Assembly (NCBI RefSeq): GCF_033097365.1
Contig: NZ_AP028461.1
Coordinates: 1,860,001-1,924,000, forward strand
Direction of reading: 5' to 3'
DNA: 64,000 bases
DNA from: Actinoplanes sichuanensis
GTDB taxonomy: Bacteria; Actinomycetota; Actinomycetes; Mycobacteriales; Micromonosporaceae
Under the pieces are notes generated by a model. It saw nothing but the letters and a program-made list of their open reading frames with translations, was not told the DNA's origin and made no database searches. Position 1 is the first letter of the stretch. Every line of letters starts with the position of its first letter. Positions 1,876-9,859 of this stretch are shown piece by piece. A program made the position numbers and the translations under genes.

Positions 1876-1944
1876 GTCACCGGCGGCCGCCCACAAAAGT
1901 CACCGGCGGCCGCCCACGGAAGTCACCGGCGGCCGCCGACGAAA
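1876..1944. repeat. Three 23-nt tandem units spanning the 3' end of the IclR gene
   Basis: Three near-identical units (1876-1898, 1899-1921, 1922-1944) begin GTCACCGGCGGCCGCC and differ only at two or three bases. The unit nearest the gene encodes the last residues TFVGGRR and the stop codon; the other two lie beyond the stop and repeat the same coding text plus stop. 23 is not a multiple of three. Confidence 0.9.
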
Positions 1945-2741
1945 GTCACCGACGGGACGGCCGCGGCCAGCGCCCAGTCGTGACCGATGTCGGCCGCGGT
2001 ACGCAGCAGTTTCGGCAGGTGGTCGTCGAGCAGTGTCTCCACCGACGTCTCGGCTGCGTGCACCGTCACATTCACGGCGGCGATGACGTTGCCGTCGCCG
2101 TCGCGCACTCCGGTGGCCACCGATCGGATGCCCGGCGCTAGGTCCTGATCGGCGAGCGCCCACCCCTTGGCCCGGACCTCCCGCAGCGCCGCCTCCAGTT
2201 CGGCCGGGTCGGGCTGCCAGCGGGCGGCGATCCCGGACCGGGAGGCCTCGGCGAGGACACCGTCGACGGCCGCCGGCGGCAGGGCCGCCAGCAGGACCTT
2301 GCCCATCGAGGTGGCGGCGGCGGGGAAGCGGGTGCCGATGTTCACCGCCAAAGTCACGATCTTCGGTACGGCCACCCGAGCCACATAGACGATGTCGGAC
2401 CCGTCGAGCTGAGCCATCGACGTCGACTCGTTGGTCTGCGCGACCAGTTTCTCCATGTGCGGCCGGGCCACGTCCCACATGCTCAGCGAGTTGACGTAGG
2501 CCATCCCGAGGTCGAGCACCCGCGGGGTCAACGCGTAGCCACGGCCGGCGCCCCGCACGTACCCCAAGGTCTCGAGGGTGATCAGGATCCTCCGGACCGT
2601 GGGGCGGGCCAGGCCGGTCACCCCGGCGATCTCGCTGAGCGTCATCGACGGGGTGCCGGGCCGGAAGGTGCGCAGGACGTCGAGGCCGCGGGCGAGCGCC
2701 TCGATGAAGTCGGGACCCGTGCCCCTTCCGGTGTCAGTCAT
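1923..2741 (-). CDS. IclR-family transcriptional regulator
   Basis: 272 residues from the ATG at 2741. The N-terminal winged helix (residues ~10-70) contains MTLSEIAGVTGLARPTVRR, the standard IclR recognition region. The C-terminal effector domain includes GSDIVYVARV, a GTRFPAAATSMGKVLLAAL block and VATGVRDGDGNVIAAVNV, as in PcaR/PobR regulators of aromatic catabolism. The gene starts 13 nt after the amidohydrolase stop and is divergent from the dioxygenase operon, so it most likely controls that operon in response to a pathway intermediate. Its last codons lie in a 23-nt tandem repeat. The longer open frame upstream to 3137 is shadow of the amidohydrolase. Confidence 0.9.
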   Translation of the reverse strand: MTDTGRGTGPDFIEALARGLDVLRTFRPGTPSMTLSEIAGVTGLARPTVRRILITLETLGYVRGAGRGYALTPRVLDLGMAYVNSLSMWDVARPHMEKLVAQTNESTSMAQLDGSDIVYVARVAVPKIVTLAVNIGTRFPAAATSMGKVLLAALPPAAVDGVLAEASRSGIAARWQPDPAELEAALREVRAKGWALADQDLAPGIRSVATGVRDGDGNVIAAVNVTVHAAETSVETLLDDHLPKLLRTAADIGHDWALAAAVPSVTFVGGRR

Positions 2742-2754
2742 CCCGGCAATGCTT

Positions 2755-4179
2755 TCATTCGGGTGAACCCGCGGTGTAGTCGGTGTACTGGTACGGGTTG
2801 TCGAACAGTTCGGCCTGCGGCAGGTCCGGGTTCTGGCCGCGCAGCCAGGCCTCCTCGCCGAGGGTCTCGCGCAGATACGAGATCGTGCCGTCGGCCCGGG
2901 CGCGGGCGGCCGCGAGATCCACGCCGACCAGCTTGCCGTCGCGTTTGACGATCTTCCCGCCGACCACGACGGTGTGCACGTCACCGCGCTGGGCCTGGAA
3001 CGCGACGTGGCCGTACGGGTGCAGGATCGGGAACATCGCGGGCGAGGCGTCGTTCTTGAGCAGCACGATGTCGGCCTGCCGCCCGGGGGTGAGCGCGCCC
3101 AGTCGGGAGTCGAGGCCGAGCGCCTTGGCGCCGCCACGGGTGGCCCAGTCGACGACCTGTTCGGCCCGCAGGTGGTGGTGGGTGACGGTCTCCTGTTTGC
3201 CGTGCGCTTCCAGGTGTTCGCGGGAGCGGTCGGCGCTGAGCGTGGTGCGCATGGCGGTGAACAGGTCGCCGCTCCACCACACGCTGGTGTCCATCGACAG
3301 CGACACCGGGATGCCGTAGCGGCGCAGCGCCCAGGTGGGCGGGTAGCCCTGGCCGGCGCTCTGCTCGCTCTCGGTGGAGACGCTGACCGAGCCTCCGGTG
3401 GCGGCGATCCGGTGGTACGAGTCGGCGCCGAGCGTGGCCGCGTGGACGTACACGGTGCCCGGGGTCATGAAGCCGTTCTCGTACATCAGGCGGATGCCGT
3501 CGTCGTTGGTGGCGCCCCACACCCCGGCGTGGGTGGTGACGGTGGCGCCCAGCTCACGGGCCACTTCGAAGGCGGCCTTCTCCGGGAACGCGGGGTCGCC
3601 GGTGACGTCGAAGGCCATCTGGAAGCCTTCGAGTCTGCCGCCGTCGATGCGGCGGCGGTGGAAGTCGCGGAAGCCGTCGGAGGCCGACCACTCCCAGGGG
3701 CCCTGCTGGATGTTGCCGTAGGCGAGGATGAACCGTCCCGGCACCGCTTCGAGCGCGTCGACCGCCGCGTCGGCGTGCTGCGGGGTCTGCAGGCCGTGTG
3801 ACCAGTCGACGGTGGTGGTGACGCCGGCGTCGAGGGCTTCGATGGCGCCGAGCAGGTTGCCGGCGTGGATGTCCTCGGGCCGGAAGTGTCTCCCGGATTC
3901 CAGGTAGTACCAGACGAAGTACTGGGTGAGGGTCCAGTCGGCGCCGTAGCCGCGCATGGCGGTCTGCCACATGTGGCGGTGGGTGTCGATCATGCCGGGC
4001 ATGACGATGCCGCCGGACGCGTCGATCTCCTCGGCGTCGTCCGGGGCGGGCAGGGCATGGCCGATCGCGGCGATCCGGCCGTCGATGGCGAGCACGTCGG
4101 CGCCGGCCAGCACCGAGTGGGTGTCGTCCATGGTCAGGACCAGTCCGTTGCGGAAGATCACCGGTCTTGCGACGCTCAT
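2755..4179 (-). CDS. Amidohydrolase-superfamily deaminase/hydrolase
   Basis: 474 residues, similar in layout to the TrzN/AtzA, guanine deaminase and 8-oxoguanine deaminase group. Visible metal-site features: the HxH-type MIDTHRHMWQTAMRG near residue 65, THAGVW (metal His), YVHAATLG (catalytic His region), and LSMDTSVWW with the conserved Asp. The C-terminal LTPGRQADIVLL returns to the beta-sandwich. Such enzymes remove amino or other groups from nitrogen heterocycles by activated water. Substrate unknown. It is the first gene of a two-gene unit with iclR and divergent from the ring-cleavage operon, suggesting that it prepares a substrate for the pathway (inference). Confidence 0.85.
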   Translation of the reverse strand: MSVARPVIFRNGLVLTMDDTHSVLAGADVLAIDGRIAAIGHALPAPDDAEEIDASGGIVMPGMIDTHRHMWQTAMRGYGADWTLTQYFVWYYLESGRHFRPEDIHAGNLLGAIEALDAGVTTTVDWSHGLQTPQHADAAVDALEAVPGRFILAYGNIQQGPWEWSASDGFRDFHRRRIDGGRLEGFQMAFDVTGDPAFPEKAAFEVARELGATVTTHAGVWGATNDDGIRLMYENGFMTPGTVYVHAATLGADSYHRIAATGGSVSVSTESEQSAGQGYPPTWALRRYGIPVSLSMDTSVWWSGDLFTAMRTTLSADRSREHLEAHGKQETVTHHHLRAEQVVDWATRGGAKALGLDSRLGALTPGRQADIVLLKNDASPAMFPILHPYGHVAFQAQRGDVHTVVVGGKIVKRDGKLVGVDLAAARARADGTISYLRETLGEEAWLRGQNPDLPQAELFDNPYQYTDYTAGSPE

Positions 4180-4355
4180 CTGCGCTCCTTTCGGACTGCT
4201 GTCCGCATGGCGGTCAGCGTGGTCAGGCCAGCGTGTTCCCGGTCACTTGCGATGTCAAGGATTTGTTTCGACGCGGTTAGGAAACCGTTGACACCGACCT
4301 CGACACCGAGCAGTCTGGTCGAGCGGACAAGTGTCCGTAGAACGGGCGGTAACTG
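4180..4355. promoter_or_regulatory. Divergent promoter region of the catabolic island
   Basis: 176 bases separate the amidohydrolase and CoA-transferase starts. It holds a short palindrome CGGTTAGGAAACCG (4274-4287, 5-bp arms, 4-base loop) and a wider GTTTC/GAAAC pair (4265-4285). These are plausible IclR sites, but IclR operators are variable, so this is a suggestion. Confidence 0.35.
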
Positions 4356-5492
4356 ATGGCTCAGCAATCCAAGGGCCCACTGGACGGCCTGCTCGTCGCC
4401 GACTTCTCCCGGATCCTGGCCGGGCCGTACGCGACGATGCTCCTGGCCGACCTCGGCGCCGAGGTGATCAAGGTGGAGGGACCCGGTGGTGACGACACCC
4501 GTACCTGGATGCCACCGGTCCGCGACGGCGTCTCCACCTACTACCTGGGCATCAACCGCAACAAGCGGTCGATCGCGCTGGACCTCAAGGACCCCGATGA
4601 CCGGGCCGCCGCCCAGGAACTGGCCCGCCGCGCGGACGTGCTGATCGAGAACATGCGGCCGGGCGGTCTGGCCCGATTCGGCCTCGACTACGACACCGTG
4701 CGCGGTGGCAACGAGCGGATCGTCTACGCCAGCATCAGCGGGTTCGGTTCGGGCGCGGGCGCGGGCATGCCCGGGTACGACCTGATGGTCCAGGCGATCT
4801 CCGGGCTGATGAGCCTCACCGGTGATCCGGACGGCTCGCCGTACCGGGCCGGGATCTCGGTCTTCGACGTGATGGCCGGCCTGCACGCGAGCATCGGCAT
4901 CCTGGCCGCGCTGCACCGGCGCGCGGACACCGGGCAGGGCCAGCACGTCGAGGTCAACCTGCTCAGCTCGGCGCTGTCCGGCCTGGTCAACCACTCCAGC
5001 GGGTACGTCGCCGGCGGCACCGTCCCGTACCGGATGGGCAACGCGCACCCGAGCCTCTTTCCCTACGAGCCGCTGCCGGTCGCCGACGGCGAGTTGATCG
5101 TCATCGCCGGCAACGACGGGCAGTTCCGCAAGCTGTGCCAGGTCCTCGGACTCGACGGCCTGCCGGAGGACCCGCGATTCGGTCGCAACCAGGACCGTAC
5201 GGCCAATCGGGAAGAATTGCGGCCGATCCTGGTGGAACGCCTCCGGACGAGGACCCGCGACGAATGGTTCCGCGACCTGATGGCTGCCGGCGTGCCGTGC
5301 GCGCCGATCAACACCATCGACGGCGGCGTCGCCATGGCCGAGGAACTCGGCCTGAATCCGGTGGTCACCGTCGGCGGCGTGCCCGGCGTCCGCAACCCCA
5401 TCACGTTCTCGCAGACCCCGGCGCGGTACGAGCTACCGCCGCCCGGACTGGACGAACACGGCGAGGAGATCCGCAGATGGCTGACGAACTGA
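4356..5492 (+). CDS. Class III (CaiB/BaiF) CoA-transferase
   Basis: 378 residues, the usual family length. The N-terminal Rossmann block reads VADFSRILAGPYATMLLADLGAEVIKVE, followed by GGDDTRTW and NRNKRSIALDLK. The nucleophile is expected to be Asp142 in MPGYDLMVQAISGLMSLTG, which forms a glutamyl/aspartyl-CoA intermediate in this family. It moves CoA between carboxylic acids. It opens the operon and its 3' end overlaps the next gene by 16 nt. Adjacent citryl-CoA-lyase and dioxygenase genes suggest it activates a ring-cleavage-derived acid (inference). Confidence 0.93.
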   Translation: MAQQSKGPLDGLLVADFSRILAGPYATMLLADLGAEVIKVEGPGGDDTRTWMPPVRDGVSTYYLGINRNKRSIALDLKDPDDRAAAQELARRADVLIENMRPGGLARFGLDYDTVRGGNERIVYASISGFGSGAGAGMPGYDLMVQAISGLMSLTGDPDGSPYRAGISVFDVMAGLHASIGILAALHRRADTGQGQHVEVNLLSSALSGLVNHSSGYVAGGTVPYRMGNAHPSLFPYEPLPVADGELIVIAGNDGQFRKLCQVLGLDGLPEDPRFGRNQDRTANREELRPILVERLRTRTRDEWFRDLMAAGVPCAPINTIDGGVAMAEELGLNPVVTVGGVPGVRNPITFSQTPARYELPPPGLDEHGEEIRRWLTN

Positions 5493-6244
5493 GCTTTCCC
5501 ACCGGACTCGGCACCTCGGACGCCGACACGATCTCGCTGCTCGGGCAGGACCTGGCCGCCGACCTGATGGGGCGGGTCGGGTTCGGGGAACTCGCGTTCT
5601 GGCTGGTCGCCGGGCGGCGGCCGAGCGCGGGGGAGGTGCGGCTGTTCGAAGCGGTGCTGGTCGCGCTGGCCGATCACGGGTTCACCCCGACCGCGATCGC
5701 GGCGCGGCTGACGTACCTCTCCGCGCCGGATTCCCTGCAGGGCGCTCTCGCGGCCGGGCTGCTCGGCGGCGGCTCGCGATTCCTCGGGGTGACCGAGGAC
5801 TGCGGGAGGTTCCTCGCCGCCGTCCTCGCCGAGGCTTCCGGTGACGATTTCGACGCGATCGCCCTCGACGCCGTCACCCGGGCCAAGGCGGAGAAACGGT
5901 TCGTGCCGGGGCTCGGGCATCCCGTTCACAAAGTCGAGGACCCGCGCACTCCGGTCCTGATCCGGATCGCCACCGAAGAGGGGATCTACGGACCGCACCT
6001 GCGTCTCTTCGAGGCGATCGGCCGCGTACATCCGCAGGTTCTGCATCGGAGGCTGCCACTCAACGGCGCCGGAGTCTGCGGCGCTGCGCTCGCCGATCTG
6101 GGATTGCCGGTGGAGATGCTGCGCGGATTCGCGCTGCTGGCCCGCGCGGCCGGACTGCTCGGGCAGATCGCCGAGGAACGGCGCCGCCCGATCGCCAACC
6201 AGATCTATCTGACCGTCGACCGTAATGCCGTCTACGAGGCATAG
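5477..6244 (+). CDS. Citryl-CoA-lyase / citrate-synthase-like protein
   Basis: 255 residues from the ATG at 5477, only about half to two-thirds of a full citrate synthase. The family signature is GLGHPVHK near residue 150, whose His corresponds to the citrate-synthase catalytic His, with a PLNGAG region and a final GLLGQIAEERRRPIANQIY block carrying the conserved Arg. Short members of this family are annotated as citryl-CoA lyases and split citryl-CoA-like thioesters into an acyl-CoA and an oxoacid. Overlap with the CoA-transferase implies translational coupling and a shared substrate. Actual substrate unknown. Confidence 0.8.
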   Translation: MADELSFPTGLGTSDADTISLLGQDLAADLMGRVGFGELAFWLVAGRRPSAGEVRLFEAVLVALADHGFTPTAIAARLTYLSAPDSLQGALAAGLLGGGSRFLGVTEDCGRFLAAVLAEASGDDFDAIALDAVTRAKAEKRFVPGLGHPVHKVEDPRTPVLIRIATEEGIYGPHLRLFEAIGRVHPQVLHRRLPLNGAGVCGAALADLGLPVEMLRGFALLARAAGLLGQIAEERRRPIANQIYLTVDRNAVYEA

Positions 6245-6256
6245 GGAGGACCATCA

Positions 6257-7120
6257 ATGGCCAGCATCGTCGCGGTCATCGCCTCGACGCACCACCCCTT
6301 CTACTATCGGGCCAGCACGTCGACCGGGGCGGACCGGCCGCCGTTCGCCGACGAGTGGACCCGCAAGATCCTCGCCTTCCGGGAGACACTGACCCGCGCC
6401 AACCCGGACGTCCTGGTCATGGTCGGCTCTGATCATTTCCACCAGTTGTGGCTGGACAACATGCCGCAGTTCCTGGTCGGCAAGGCACCCGTGTACGACG
6501 CGAACTGGTATAACGAGGAACGCGAGTTCGGGCTGCCGCGCATGACGCTGAAGGGGCAGGAGGACCTGTCGTCGCACATCCTGCGGGCCGGCCTGGACGA
6601 GGGATTCGACCTGGCGTTCAGCAACGAACTGCGGATCGACCACAGCATCACCTGCCCGATCATCACGCTGCGACCGGAAGCGGACCTGCCGATCGTGCCG
6701 ATCTACACCAACATCTTCGCGCCGCCGCTGCCCCGCCCGACCCGGTTCGTGGACCTCGGCGTCGCCATCCGCAAGATCATTGAGGAGTGGCCGTCGCACC
6801 TGCGGGTCGCGGTGATCGGAACCGGTCATCTGTCACTCGAACTCGGCGGGCCCCGGCAGTTCGGGCCGCACGGACCGGACCCGGCGTTCGACGAACGGGC
6901 CGTGGCGTGGATCGCCAACGGCGACCTCGACGGATGCCTGCGGGAGGTGACCCTGGACAGCCTGCACGCGCCCGGGAACGCCACCCACGGATTCATGGAC
7001 TTCATGCTGATGATGGGTGTCGCCGGAGCCGGCGCGAAAGCCGACTACGTCGACACGTTCGACCTGTTCCACACGATGGAGGCGTATTTCACCTGGTACC
7101 CGAACGGGGCTCCGGCATGA
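6257..7120 (+). CDS. LigB-type extradiol ring-cleavage dioxygenase, catalytic subunit
   Basis: 287 residues, close to protocatechuate 4,5-dioxygenase LigB in length and pattern. Candidate Fe(II) ligands are in STHHPFY (His12/13) and GSDHFHQLW (His60/62); GTGHLSLELGG near residue 190 matches the catalytic-base His segment. It cleaves a catechol-type ring next to the hydroxyls using O2. AGGGAGGACC precedes the ATG by a few bases. Its stop overlaps the small-subunit start as ATGA. The aromatic substrate cannot be read from the sequence; protocatechuate, gallate or a heterocyclic diol are possible. Confidence 0.9.
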   Translation: MASIVAVIASTHHPFYYRASTSTGADRPPFADEWTRKILAFRETLTRANPDVLVMVGSDHFHQLWLDNMPQFLVGKAPVYDANWYNEEREFGLPRMTLKGQEDLSSHILRAGLDEGFDLAFSNELRIDHSITCPIITLRPEADLPIVPIYTNIFAPPLPRPTRFVDLGVAIRKIIEEWPSHLRVAVIGTGHLSLELGGPRQFGPHGPDPAFDERAVAWIANGDLDGCLREVTLDSLHAPGNATHGFMDFMLMMGVAGAGAKADYVDTFDLFHTMEAYFTWYPNGAPA

Positions 7121-7479
7121 GCAAGTATCTGCTGAACAAATTCCTCTTCACCGTCGACCGCGACCCGGAACTGGTCGAACGCTATCGCGAGGACCCGCGC
7201 GAACTGGTCACCTGGTGGGAGTCGACGGTCGCCAATTCGCTGCTCAACTGCCATTCCGGTGAGGCGAGCACGTGGCTCGAGTTCACCCCGGCCGAACGGG
7301 ACGCACTGATCGAGCGCGACCATGTGCGGCTGTTCGAGATGGGCGCGCATCCGTTCCTCACCCTGACCCTGTTCATCGCCGTGTTCGAACGCGACAACAC
7401 CGAACCCCTCGAATACCAGAAGGCGTACGGGGCGGCGCTCTCCGGGTTCTCGCTGCCGTACCCGGACATCGCGACATGA
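7117..7479 (+). CDS. LigA-type small subunit of the extradiol dioxygenase
   Basis: 120 residues, the usual size for the all-helical LigA subunit (residues SKYLLNKFLFTVDRD at the start, then HVRLFEMGAHPFLTLTLF). LigA caps the active site of LigB in the heterotetramer. The ATG at 7117 overlaps the LigB stop, and its own stop overlaps the next start (ATGA at 7476), giving tight coupling and balanced stoichiometry. The longer frame from 6787 is shadow of LigB. Confidence 0.9.
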   Translation: MSKYLLNKFLFTVDRDPELVERYREDPRELVTWWESTVANSLLNCHSGEASTWLEFTPAERDALIERDHVRLFEMGAHPFLTLTLFIAVFERDNTEPLEYQKAYGAALSGFSLPYPDIAT

Positions 7480-8378
7480 TCTCCGCGGCGGTTCTGCGGG
7501 AATGCGGGCGGCCGCCCGTTCTCGAACAGCGGCCCGCCCCGGTCCCGGCCGACGGGTCGGTGCTGGTCGACGTGGTGGCGGCGCCGATCACGCCGCTCGA
7601 CCTGCTGTGCGCATCCGGGACCAGCTACTTCGGGGCGCCCGCCACACCCTACGTACCGGGTGTGCAGGGCGTCGGGCATCTCGCCGACGGCACGGCCGTA
7701 TGGTTCGCGACCTCGGCCGGCATGCGCCCGGGTGACGGCAGTATGGCGTCGGTCGTGGCGGTGCCGGAGAACGACGTCGTCGTCCTCCCACCGGGCGCGC
7801 CGCTGGTGCCCGTCGCCGCGCTCGGGCTGTCGGCGGTCGCGGCGCTCGGGGCGCTGCACGCGGCGGGCAGCCCGGAGGGCAAACACGTGCTGGTCCTCGG
7901 TGCCGGCGGCACGGTCGGGCAGGCCGCCATCCAGTTGGCGCTGCTGGCCGGTGCGCGCCGGGTGATCGCCGTCGCCCGCTCGGCCGACGCCCGCCGGCAT
8001 GCCGAGAGCCTGGGCGCGACGGCGGTACCGATCGAGGACCTGGACGGCCCGGCCGACCTGGTGATCGACCCGGTCTTCGGAGCACCCGCCGCGGCGGCGC
8101 TGCGGGTCCTGCGCCCCGGCGGAACCCTGGTCAACCTGGGTTCCTCGGCCGGTCCGACCGCCCCGATCGACTCGGCGACGCTGCGCAGCGGCTCCCTGCA
8201 GATCCTCGGCTACACCAACAACGCCCTGTCCTGGCGCCGCCGAGCCACCATGATCACCGAGGTGGCCACCCACGCCGCCGCCGGCCACCTGACCGTCACC
8301 CACTCGCCGGTCCCGTTCAGCTCGGTAGCGTCGGCCTGGACCGACACCACCCCCACCCGCCGGGTCCTGACCTTCTGA
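7476..8378 (+). CDS. Zinc-free MDR (quinone-oxidoreductase-like) NAD(P)H enzyme
   Basis: 300 residues from the ATG at 7476, medium-chain dehydrogenase/reductase fold. The GroES-like half ends near residue 120; the Rossmann motif is VLVLGAGGTVGQAAIQLALLAGA (residues ~139-161). No zinc-binding Cys/His cluster is visible, as in NADPH:quinone oxidoreductases. As last gene of the dioxygenase operon it probably reduces a quinone, enone or oxo intermediate. The exact substrate is unknown. Confidence 0.85.
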   Translation: MISAAVLRECGRPPVLEQRPAPVPADGSVLVDVVAAPITPLDLLCASGTSYFGAPATPYVPGVQGVGHLADGTAVWFATSAGMRPGDGSMASVVAVPENDVVVLPPGAPLVPVAALGLSAVAALGALHAAGSPEGKHVLVLGAGGTVGQAAIQLALLAGARRVIAVARSADARRHAESLGATAVPIEDLDGPADLVIDPVFGAPAAAALRVLRPGGTLVNLGSSAGPTAPIDSATLRSGSLQILGYTNNALSWRRRATMITEVATHAAAGHLTVTHSPVPFSSVASAWTDTTPTRRVLTF

Positions 8379-8400: not shown

Positions 8401-8982
8401 CTAGCGGTCGGGGTGGCAGGTTTCGGAGGGTGGCCAGTCGTGGTTGCGGAAGGCGGCCGGAGTGGTGCCCATGACCCGGCGGAACTCGGCGCCCATATGG
8501 GACTGGTCGTAGTAACCGGCGTCGGCGGCGACCTCGGGCAGGCGTCGCCCGAGACCGGCCAGAACCCGCCGGACCCGGTCGATGCGGACGAACTGAGCCG
8601 GTGTCAGCCCGGTCTGTTCGGTGAACACGTTGCGCAGGTGCCGTTCGCTGACGTGCAGTTCGCGGGCCGCCTCGGCGACCGGCCGGCGGGCCGCGCCACC
8701 GGACAGCAGCGGGATCGCCGCCGTGACCAGACCCCGGTGGGTCGAACCGACCCGCCGCCGCTTGAGCACCTCGGCGGCGGGGACGGCACGGTCGACCAGC
8801 TCCCGCAAGGGGATGTCGAGGAACCCGGCCGCCCGCCCGGGCTGGAAGCGCATGAGGTGACAGGTCCGGCCGGGCTGATCGGCGTAGTAGCGGGCCGTCG
8901 TCCGTGGGCCGGCGACGACCAGCTCTCCGGGCCGTCGCCAGATCAGGGTCACGTCGGGATCGGGCGCTTCCAGGACGGTCAT
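8401..8982 (-). CDS. AraC-family transcriptional regulator
   Basis: 193 residues from the ATG at 8982. The C-terminal double helix-turn-helix is clear: VAEAARELHVSERHLRNVFTEQTGLTPAQF and LPEVAADAGYYDQSHMGAEFRRVMGTTPAAFR. The N-terminal half is a short cupin-like sensor. Its start lies 61 bases from the divergent NmrA-like gene, which is its likely target. Converges with the preceding operon with 22 bases between stops. Confidence 0.9.
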   Translation of the reverse strand: MTVLEAPDPDVTLIWRRPGELVVAGPRTTARYYADQPGRTCHLMRFQPGRAAGFLDIPLRELVDRAVPAAEVLKRRRVGSTHRGLVTAAIPLLSGGAARRPVAEAARELHVSERHLRNVFTEQTGLTPAQFVRIDRVRRVLAGLGRRLPEVAADAGYYDQSHMGAEFRRVMGTTPAAFRNHDWPPSETCHPDR

Positions 8983-9043
8983 GACCCGGACCGTACCGAA
9001 AGTTCCTAGGCCCGGAGGTCCGCCGCCTGGAACCGTGACCGGC

Positions 9044-9859
9044 ATGATTCTCGTGACCGGAGCCACCGGAACCGTCGGGCGGCATGTCGTGCAGCTTCTC
9101 CACCAGGGTGGACACCCGTTCCGGGCGATGAGCCGCAAACCGTCCGGGCCGGGGGTGGTGCGGGCCGACTTCGACGATCCCGGTTCGTTACGCCGGGCGG
9201 TGGCCGATGTCCGAGCGGTGTTCCTGCTGACGGCTCCGGCCGTACCATCGCCCGATTTTGATCTCGCCTTGCTGGCGGCGGCCCGGGAAGCGGGAGTCGC
9301 GTCGGTGGTGAAACTGTCCGCGATCGGAACCGGTGAGGTGTTCGAGGGAGCGACCGTCGGAGCGTGGCATCTGGCCGCGGAACAGGCGGTCCGGGAGTCC
9401 GGCCTGGCGTGGACGATCCTGCGGCCGTCGAGTTTCGCCAGCAACGCTCGGCATTGGTTCGCGGGCGGACCGGTGCCCAACCTCACCGGCGACGGACGGC
9501 AGGGTGTCATCGACCCCCGCGACATCGCCGCCGTCGCGGTCGCCGCGCTCACCGGTCCGGCCCACGCGGGCCGGACCTACACGCTGACCGGCCCCGAGCT
9601 GCTGTCCGTTCCCGATCAGGCGCGGCAACTCGGCGAGATCCTCGGCCGGCCGGTCGCCACCGTGGACCTCCCGCCCGCCGAGGCGGCCGCGCACCTGCTG
9701 GCCGCCGGGCTGCCGCCGGCCGCGGTCGATGCCACCGTCCTCGGGTCGGCCTGGGCCCGGGCGGGGCACAACGCGGTTCTGACCGGTGACGTGGCGGATG
9801 TTCTCGGCCGTCCGCCGTCGACCTTTCGGGACTGGGTCTTGTTATCGATCACAGAGTGA
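9044..9859 (+). CDS. NmrA/SDR-type NAD(P)-binding protein
   Basis: 271 residues; the ATG at 9044 puts the nucleotide-binding loop MILVTGATGTVGRHVV at the N-terminus, as in atypical SDR/NmrA proteins, whereas the upstream ATG at 8981 adds an unstructured proline stretch. SAIGTGEV and WTILRPSSFASNA match the family's central segments; the usual SDR Tyr-x3-Lys is not evident. Such proteins reduce small molecules or sense the NADP(H) state. Divergent from an AraC regulator. An inverted repeat follows at the stop. Confidence 0.82.
   Translation: MILVTGATGTVGRHVVQLLHQGGHPFRAMSRKPSGPGVVRADFDDPGSLRRAVADVRAVFLLTAPAVPSPDFDLALLAAAREAGVASVVKLSAIGTGEVFEGATVGAWHLAAEQAVRESGLAWTILRPSSFASNARHWFAGGPVPNLTGDGRQGVIDPRDIAAVAVAALTGPAHAGRTYTLTGPELLSVPDQARQLGEILGRPVATVDLPPAEAAAHLLAAGLPPAAVDATVLGSAWARAGHNAVLTGDVADVLGRPPSTFRDWVLLSITE

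Follow-up and report, generated by a model that had tools for sequence, protein, structure and literature searches.

A conserved actinobacterial gene cassette joins a LigB-fold ring-cleavage enzyme with an altered active site to CoA activation and an aspartate-less citrate-synthase-fold protein: a putative lower catabolic pathway

The described systems closest to the locus analyzed here are the protocatechuate/gallate 4,5-cleavage pathways with the dioxygenases LigAB and DesB, the hydroxyquinol pathway with hydroxyquinol 1,2-dioxygenase and maleylacetate reductase, the β-ketoadipate pathway with PcaD, PcaIJ and PcaF, citryl-coenzyme A (CoA) lyase together with the related module of ATP-citrate lyase, and the atrazine/triazine hydrolases. 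Here, we describe a cassette from a 64,000-nucleotide stretch of the genome of Actinoplanes sichuanensis, a soil-type actinobacterium (C1:1860001-1924000 of a single contig of 12.1 Mb), referred to as the window, whose first base is position 1 of all coordinates below. The cassette combines a LigB-fold ring-cleavage enzyme (LigBA), a class III CoA-transferase (CaiB) and a citryl-CoA-lyase-like protein (CCL), and represents a real, widely conserved and apparently uncharacterised catabolic unit. Its gene content and conservation, the replacement of LigBA and of CaiB by unrelated enzymes, and the missing catalytic residues were all observed directly in the genomes compared.

The cassette is organized divergently. 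The genes of an IclR-family regulator and an amidohydrolase (AMH) run leftward on the minus strand, while CaiB, CCL, LigB, LigA and a quinone-oxidoreductase-like protein (QOR) follow each other rightward on the plus strand; the intergenic region between the two arms (4180..4355) is, by position only, a putative promoter with a putative IclR site. The genes named in the initial annotation, which covered 2755..8378, are all in place; the IclR gene lies outside this interval and is nevertheless part of the unit. The ATGA overlaps between LigB and LigA and between LigA and QOR were likewise found as described. The reported 16-nt overlap exists between CaiB and CCL; 12 nt lie between CCL and LigB.

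Conservation, which goes beyond chance, was analyzed in 105 loci grouped by gene clustering (the window, L035, L036 and L042-L143; the distant loci L037-L041 were excluded), which were mostly picked via CCL and in which contig ends explain some gene losses. CCL was called in 103 of the 105. Among these 103 loci, 96 contain CaiB (95 of them adjacent to CCL), 82 LigB, 81 LigA, 78 AMH and 53 QOR, and the 4-nt overlap of LigB and LigA was found again in 69; the IclR cluster is present in 86/105 loci. Of 250 genomes sampled from the family (own genome counted), 117 have CCL matches at an E-value of 1e-10, with near full-length matches of at least 68% identity in at least 85 genomes among the matches listed. 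With one genome per species, at least 574 CCL relatives were confirmed, of which the best 80 were kept. An independent test started from LigB (396 genomes of the phylum, E-value 1e-60) and matched nine genomes including the own one. It recovered CaiB, CCL, LigB, LigA, IclR and AMH together in seven of the eight other genomes, with QOR in one of the eight; the remaining genome (L198) has only LigB and LigA within the 11.5 kb read. Related sets are also located on alphaproteobacterial plasmids of Aminobacter (CCL, CaiB, LigB, LigA) as well as Martelella and Sinorhizobium (both with AMH). Two Rhizobium plasmids (L147, L148) carry LigBA proteins 62-64% identical to those of the window near cytochrome P450 genes, with no CCL in the stretch shown. 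CCL matches broken into two or three pieces were seen in G006:C14, G021:C104 and G216:C82, reflecting either broken genes or assembly errors.

The large subunit LigB (6257..7120, plus strand, 287 amino acids) has the LigB fold. According to a second look at the Foldseek matches, a list not informative on absences, its nearest structures are the protocatechuate 4,5-dioxygenase LigAB and the gallate dioxygenase DesB (1bou, 3wr8), with about 23% identity; 2-aminophenol 1,6-dioxygenase is also among the fold relatives. The LigA-like small subunit (7117..7479, plus strand, 120 amino acids) scores 21.0 bits against Pfam LigA (3.8e-4), below the cutoff of 25.3 bits, and its position behind LigB is nonetheless conserved. 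Two iron ligands of LigAB, His12 and His61, correspond to His12 and His60 in the window LigB and are invariant in 36 aligned members. The third ligand, Glu242, is replaced by Gly245, and the column of His195, which we take to be the catalytic (acid-base) residue of LigAB, holds Leu194; both replacements are invariant in the 36 members and agree in three alignments. In addition, His191 is new in comparison to LigAB and DesB. Thus, of the extradiol identity given in the initial annotation, the fold and the His12/His60 pair hold, while the missing iron-ligand Glu and catalytic His had been overlooked; judged by these residues, the protein is not a textbook LigB. A firm claim of His244 as the substitute iron ligand was dropped, as this position is Gln in 2/84 LigBs and Pro in the K84 and Polymorphobacter homologs.

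A comparable loss is found in CCL (5477..6244, plus strand, 255 amino acids), which has the citrate synthase fold (Citrate_synt, 1.1e-20), exceeds the cutoff of NCBIfam NF004868 (291 versus 193 bits) and best matches structure 6hxp (E-value 1.7e-11, TM score 0.78, 32% identity). Both catalytic His columns (DHG and GH motifs) are His in 103/103 cassette-type CCLs. The Asp column of the NxDG motif, however, is Ala in every one of the 103 (Ala198 in the window), and the Arg of GHR, presumably a carboxylate-binding residue, is replaced by Pro in 101 (Pro149 in the window), His in one and Asn in one. The same positions also lack Asp (Thr 7, Ser 3, Ala 2, Val 1) and Arg in all 13 proteobacterial and plasmid relatives; these include L037, which like L041 is a Rhodococcus plasmid. 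As a control, 12 of the 16 distant paralogs retain the Asp, including one of the own genome (L167), as do both PDB fragments. Going by the titles of PDB entries, the same Asp-to-Ala change is present in structures of human ATP-citrate lyase (D1026A) and of a Methanosaeta enzyme (D541A, citryl-CoA complex). Judging from this residue pattern, CCL probably does not work as a citryl-CoA lyase. If this is true, many genes now called citryl-CoA lyase, among them the at least 574 relatives, would carry the wrong name. The paralog at L167 (C1:4350000-4369900; the gene itself at C1:4359669-4360310) forms a second CaiB and CCL pair in the own genome, where an aldehyde dehydrogenase, an enzyme of the thiamine-diphosphate type and a ThuA protein are its neighbours; CaiB and similar-sized neighbours also surround the CCL paralogs in L175, L176, L181, L182 and others.

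The gene company of CCL provides information on its likely substrate. CaiB (4356..5492, plus strand, 378 amino acids; CoA_transf_3, 3e-117) has a conserved Asp171, which we assume to be the catalytic residue of class III CoA-transferases. In the CaiB-less loci L055, L061 and L111, an AMP-forming CoA ligase is located directly upstream of CCL. One of them, L055 (7871-10373, Micromonosporaceae-family genome G022), is a catechol ortho-cleavage operon in the order flavin reductase, HpaB-like hydroxylase, muconolactone isomerase, intradiol dioxygenase, muconate-cycloisomerase-like protein (below cutoff), PcaD (above cutoff), CoA ligase and Asp-less CCL; the last two occupy the place expected for PcaIJ and thiolase. 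Ten further plasmid loci without ring-cleavage context (L037-L041, L183-L187) were hand-picked for diversity among the matches listed (30 of 116 records). Half of them (L037, L040, L183, L185, L187) have an acyl-CoA dehydrogenase, a MaoC hydratase and an SDR dehydrogenase near CCL. L186 combines dehydrogenase, hydratase and CoA transferase with no close SDR, L184 has a ligase and a dehydrogenase, and L038 has a 3-oxoacid CoA-transferase beside CCL together with a dehydrogenase; L039 (Cupriavidus) reads CCL-CaiB-LeuCD, and L041 shows no clear set. LeuD is further present in seven loci belonging to the Rhodococcus-Williamsia-Arthrobacter group. In L131 and L081, aconitase genes may be chance housekeeping neighbours and were not used as evidence, so that LeuD alone was counted. 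Viewed as a whole, with CCL relatives in β-oxidation operons and in one operon of the β-ketoadipate type, these neighbours suggest that CCL would act on a CoA ester, in all likelihood a 3-oxoacyl-CoA, as a stand-in for thiolase. The outline proposed initially, i.e. ring cleavage followed by CoA activation and C–C bond splitting, gains support from the adjacency of CaiB and CCL in 95/103 loci, the CoA ligases of L055, L061 and L111 and the 3-oxoacid CoA-transferase of L038.

Besides CaiB, the ring-cleavage enzyme itself is exchanged. In ten of the 103 loci, LigBA is missing and a protein of about 287 amino acids of the intradiol type is found in its stead, with PnpC (3n9t, 1.6e-74) and hydroxyquinol 1,2-dioxygenase (1tmx, 1.6e-70) as best structure matches and all matches to the NCBIfam catechol/chlorocatechol models below cutoff. 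LigBA and the intradiol enzyme never occur together (0/103 loci; LigB 82, intradiol 10). The intradiol gene adjoins cassette genes in 9/10 loci: it directly follows CCL in L063, L066, L068 and L081, follows QOR in L102, L114, L128 and L139 and precedes CaiB in L071; in L082 it lies about 4 kb from CaiB. A tree of CaiB and CCL (96 rows: 80 with LigB, 9 with the intradiol enzyme and 7 with neither; L066, lacking CaiB, is absent) was obtained by a quick search with SH-aLRT (Shimodaira-Hasegawa-like approximate likelihood ratio test) support only. Many of its inner branches are weak, hence the count over starred branches was used: the type of ring-cleavage enzyme changes five times, and at least four of these changes are forced by starred branches. 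For example, the sister loci L069 and L071 differ in their ring-cleavage enzyme. In Rhodococcus and Williamsia, the remainder of a larger operon (MhpA-like hydroxylase, alpha/beta hydrolase, AMH2, CaiB, CCL, LeuD) is unchanged on either side of the exchange. A VOC-family protein is located beside CCL in L124 and nearby in L036, and the own genome encodes a hydroxyquinol-dioxygenase-like protein elsewhere (44% identity).

From this exchange we infer that LigBA and the intradiol enzyme deliver the same product. An extradiol and an intradiol enzyme can open a ring at one and the same bond only where oxygen is bound to three adjacent carbons; 1,2,3,5-tetrahydroxybenzene has three such carbons and also carries the hydroxyquinol pattern. 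With a substrate that lacks them, LigBA itself would have to have become intradiol-like. The exchange makes the substrate directly testable with a few polyhydroxybenzenes.

Among the remaining genes of the cassette, the IclR-family regulator (1923..2741, minus strand, 272 amino acids; Pfam IclR_C 4.7e-34, HTH_IclR 1.8e-15) has its best NCBIfam match in TIGR02431, the PcaR/PcaU/PobR family (264.9 bits, cutoff 284.75). AMH (2755..4179, minus strand, 474 amino acids; Amidohydro_1, 5.1e-31) belongs to the PRK08204 subfamily of the atrazine-hydrolase group (NF006056, 392.7 bits, cutoff 391). Its His67, His69, His217, His246 and Asp297, which we take to be metal-site residues, are conserved in AMH and AMH2. 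In place of HxxE, presumably the motif of the deaminases in this group (TRZ/ATZ), AMH reads HAGV throughout a cluster of 79 members. Because the metal site is kept without the deaminase Glu, hydrolysis of a lactone, an ether or a vinylogous ester appears as likely as deamination. In L067, L069, L070, L071, L082 and L124, no AMH was seen up to seven genes away from CCL. QOR (7476..8378, plus strand, 300 amino acids) matches ADH_zinc_N (4.8e-15) and, far below cutoff, quinone_pig3 (7.3e-18). Together with an NAD(P)H-dependent oxidoreductase whose gene immediately precedes CCL in Sinorhizobium and a flavin mononucleotide (FMN) reductase encoded at a distance of about 7 kb from CCL in Aminobacter, it is consistent with a quinone-forming substrate. 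Furthermore, a MetE-like protein of about 345 amino acids, possibly an O-demethylase, was noticed near the cassette or CCL in five loci (L131, L137, L095, L141, L061); it is speculation that these proteins and one UroD-like protein point to methoxylated rings. Cluster c7, a small membrane protein (about 173 amino acids) that looks DoxX-like by eye, adjoins the cassette in 14 loci (including L072-L074, L085, L087, L092, L098 and L122). In the window, the cassette is flanked by MurG-like glycosyltransferase and AraC-like frames (653-1825 and 8401-9552, both minus strand), named by eye from their translations.

What could the cassette do? From the observations above we infer its chemistry, the kind of substrate and what AMH, QOR and IclR contribute. 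Our preferred explanation, plausible but tentative, is that the cassette serves as a lower pathway in the catabolism of a polyhydroxylated aromatic ring. LigBA, or the hydroxyquinol-type intradiol enzyme in some species, would cut a tri- or tetrahydroxybenzene at a bond whose two carbons both carry hydroxyl groups, presumably yielding a dicarboxylic acid that is a β-keto acid. CaiB would very likely place CoA on this product, and the Asp-less CCL could then release acetyl-CoA from the 3-oxoacyl-CoA and leave a small dicarboxylic acid, which is the part that thiolase plays in the β-ketoadipate pathway. Hydroxyquinol would give acetyl-CoA and maleate, and 1,2,3,5-tetrahydroxybenzene acetyl-CoA and oxaloacetate; LeuD, where present, could hydrate the other product, e.g. 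maleate. AMH might prepare the substrate or hydrolyse a lactone, ether or ester, QOR might keep the easily oxidised ring in its reduced state, and IclR presumably controls the genes. A more specific version, which we consider doubtful, is a new lower pathway in which LigB, without its iron-ligand Glu and acid-base His, cuts the bond that an intradiol hydroxyquinol-type dioxygenase would cut, perhaps with an all-His iron site, and the Asp-less CCL replaces thiolase by hydrolysis of a β-ketoacyl-CoA; lignin-derived 2,6-dimethoxyquinone, for instance, could be demethoxylated by AMH, reduced by QOR and converted via 1,2,3,5-tetrahydroxybenzene to oxaloacetate and acetyl-CoA. If true, a thiolase-free path from aromatic rings to acetyl-CoA would be common in soil actinobacteria, and the LigB-fold oxygenase would be a natural experiment on the change of an iron site.

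Several points weigh against the preferred explanation. The residue losses could mean another reaction entirely. The substrate of CCL may also be a 3-hydroxyacyl-CoA, in view of L186 with a dehydrogenase and a hydratase, yet no close SDR. The finding of no thiolase in 138 loci (PaaJ/AtoB homologs, E-value 1e-12 over half the length) is a weak argument, since at the density of the own genome, with 10 matches over 12.1 Mb, only about two would be expected there. The intradiol enzyme remains under every NCBIfam cutoff, which leaves its substrate uncertain. Finally, AMH has no explained role and was not seen in several loci.

The initial annotation had instead proposed that the ring-cleavage product becomes a citramalate- or citrate-type tertiary hydroxy acid, which CaiB converts to its CoA ester and CCL splits as a true citryl- or citramalyl-CoA lyase. 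The fold, the NCBIfam name and the two retained His columns speak for such a lyase, and a hydratase could be supplied by LeuD in the seven loci; the CCL-CaiB-LeuCD arrangement of Cupriavidus would equally fit a series of hydratase, CoA-transfer and lyase steps with a citramalate-like acid, which counts against a thiolase-like CCL. However, a citrate- or citramalate-like substrate is not supported in view of the lost Asp and Arg and of relatives in thiolase positions, and the Methanosaeta Asp-to-Ala mutant was, according to its PDB title, solved with citryl-CoA intact. We therefore regard this route as unlikely. A similarly small chance is given to a gallate or pyrogallol pathway, in which LigBA would produce a 2-hydroxymuconate or oxalomesaconate from a pyrogallol-type ring, AMH would hydrate or delactonise it, and a variant CaiB/CCL route or a free-acid aldolase encoded elsewhere would finish the degradation. 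DesB and LigAB are the nearest structures of LigB, a pyrogallol ring would account for the intradiol exchange by established chemistry, and the genome has RraA-like genes outside the cluster. Yet the window LigB has lost the iron ligand and the base of DesB and LigAB, the exchanged intradiol enzyme resembles hydroxyquinol rather than pyrogallol enzymes, and gallate cleavage products need no CoA. The canonical gallate pathway, weighed because DesB is a nearest structure, was kept as a rival only.

As had been noted initially, the cluster itself contains no aldolase or hydratase, such as CHA aldolase and OMA hydratase, and no LigC. Elsewhere in the genome there are two RraA-like, two aconitase-family and six Amidohydro_2 matches (four above cutoff) in addition to the hydroxyquinol-dioxygenase-like gene, and because of these, a free-acid route or a contribution from other loci may exist. 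Least probable among the alternatives is a nitrogen-containing substrate, for which AMH would deaminate an aminophenol or N-heterocycle, either ahead of the ring opening or following it. This suggestion, made earlier from AMH, can point to the grouping of AMH with atrazine chlorohydrolase and 8-oxoguanine deaminase and to 2-aminophenol 1,6-dioxygenase among the LigB fold relatives. It found no specific support: HAGV replaces HxxE, six otherwise similar loci showed no AMH within seven genes, and no other nitrogen-linked gene was conspicuous among the recurring clusters inspected.

Searches of an open-access library, which lacks most subscription journals, gave no description of the cassette gene set. 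The flavonoid fde and isoflavone ifc clusters were considered as well; term searches of PMC11069340 gave no hit for citryl, CoA transferase or amidohydrolase, and those of PMC13101518, PMC11705938 and PMC8222616 brought up no description of the cassette.

Altogether, the cassette shares elements with each of the described systems. In comparison to LigAB and DesB, its LigB is only about 23% identical and differs by Glu242 to Gly, His195 to Leu and the new His191, and the cluster lacks the LigC, LigI, LigJ and LigK of protocatechuate/gallate 4,5-cleavage. CCL shares the fold, both catalytic His and the DPR Arg with the citryl-CoA lyase 6hxp and the ATP-citrate lyase module, but differs by Asp to Ala, GHR Arg to Pro and its aromatic or β-oxidation-like gene company. 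AMH shows the His/Asp pattern, presumably a metal site, of atrazine/triazine hydrolases (4v1x, 3hpa), whereas it has no HxxE Glu and belongs to the uncharacterised PRK08204 subfamily. An enzyme like that of the hydroxyquinol pathway replaces LigBA in 10/103 loci, but is followed by CaiB and CCL. The proposed scheme is reminiscent of the β-ketoadipate pathway, with cleavage to a diacid, CoA transfer and release of acetyl-CoA, and the relative L055 carries the catechol ortho-cleavage set up to PcaD; where that pathway has PcaIJ and thiolase, the cassette has a class III CoA-transferase or a CoA ligase together with CCL.

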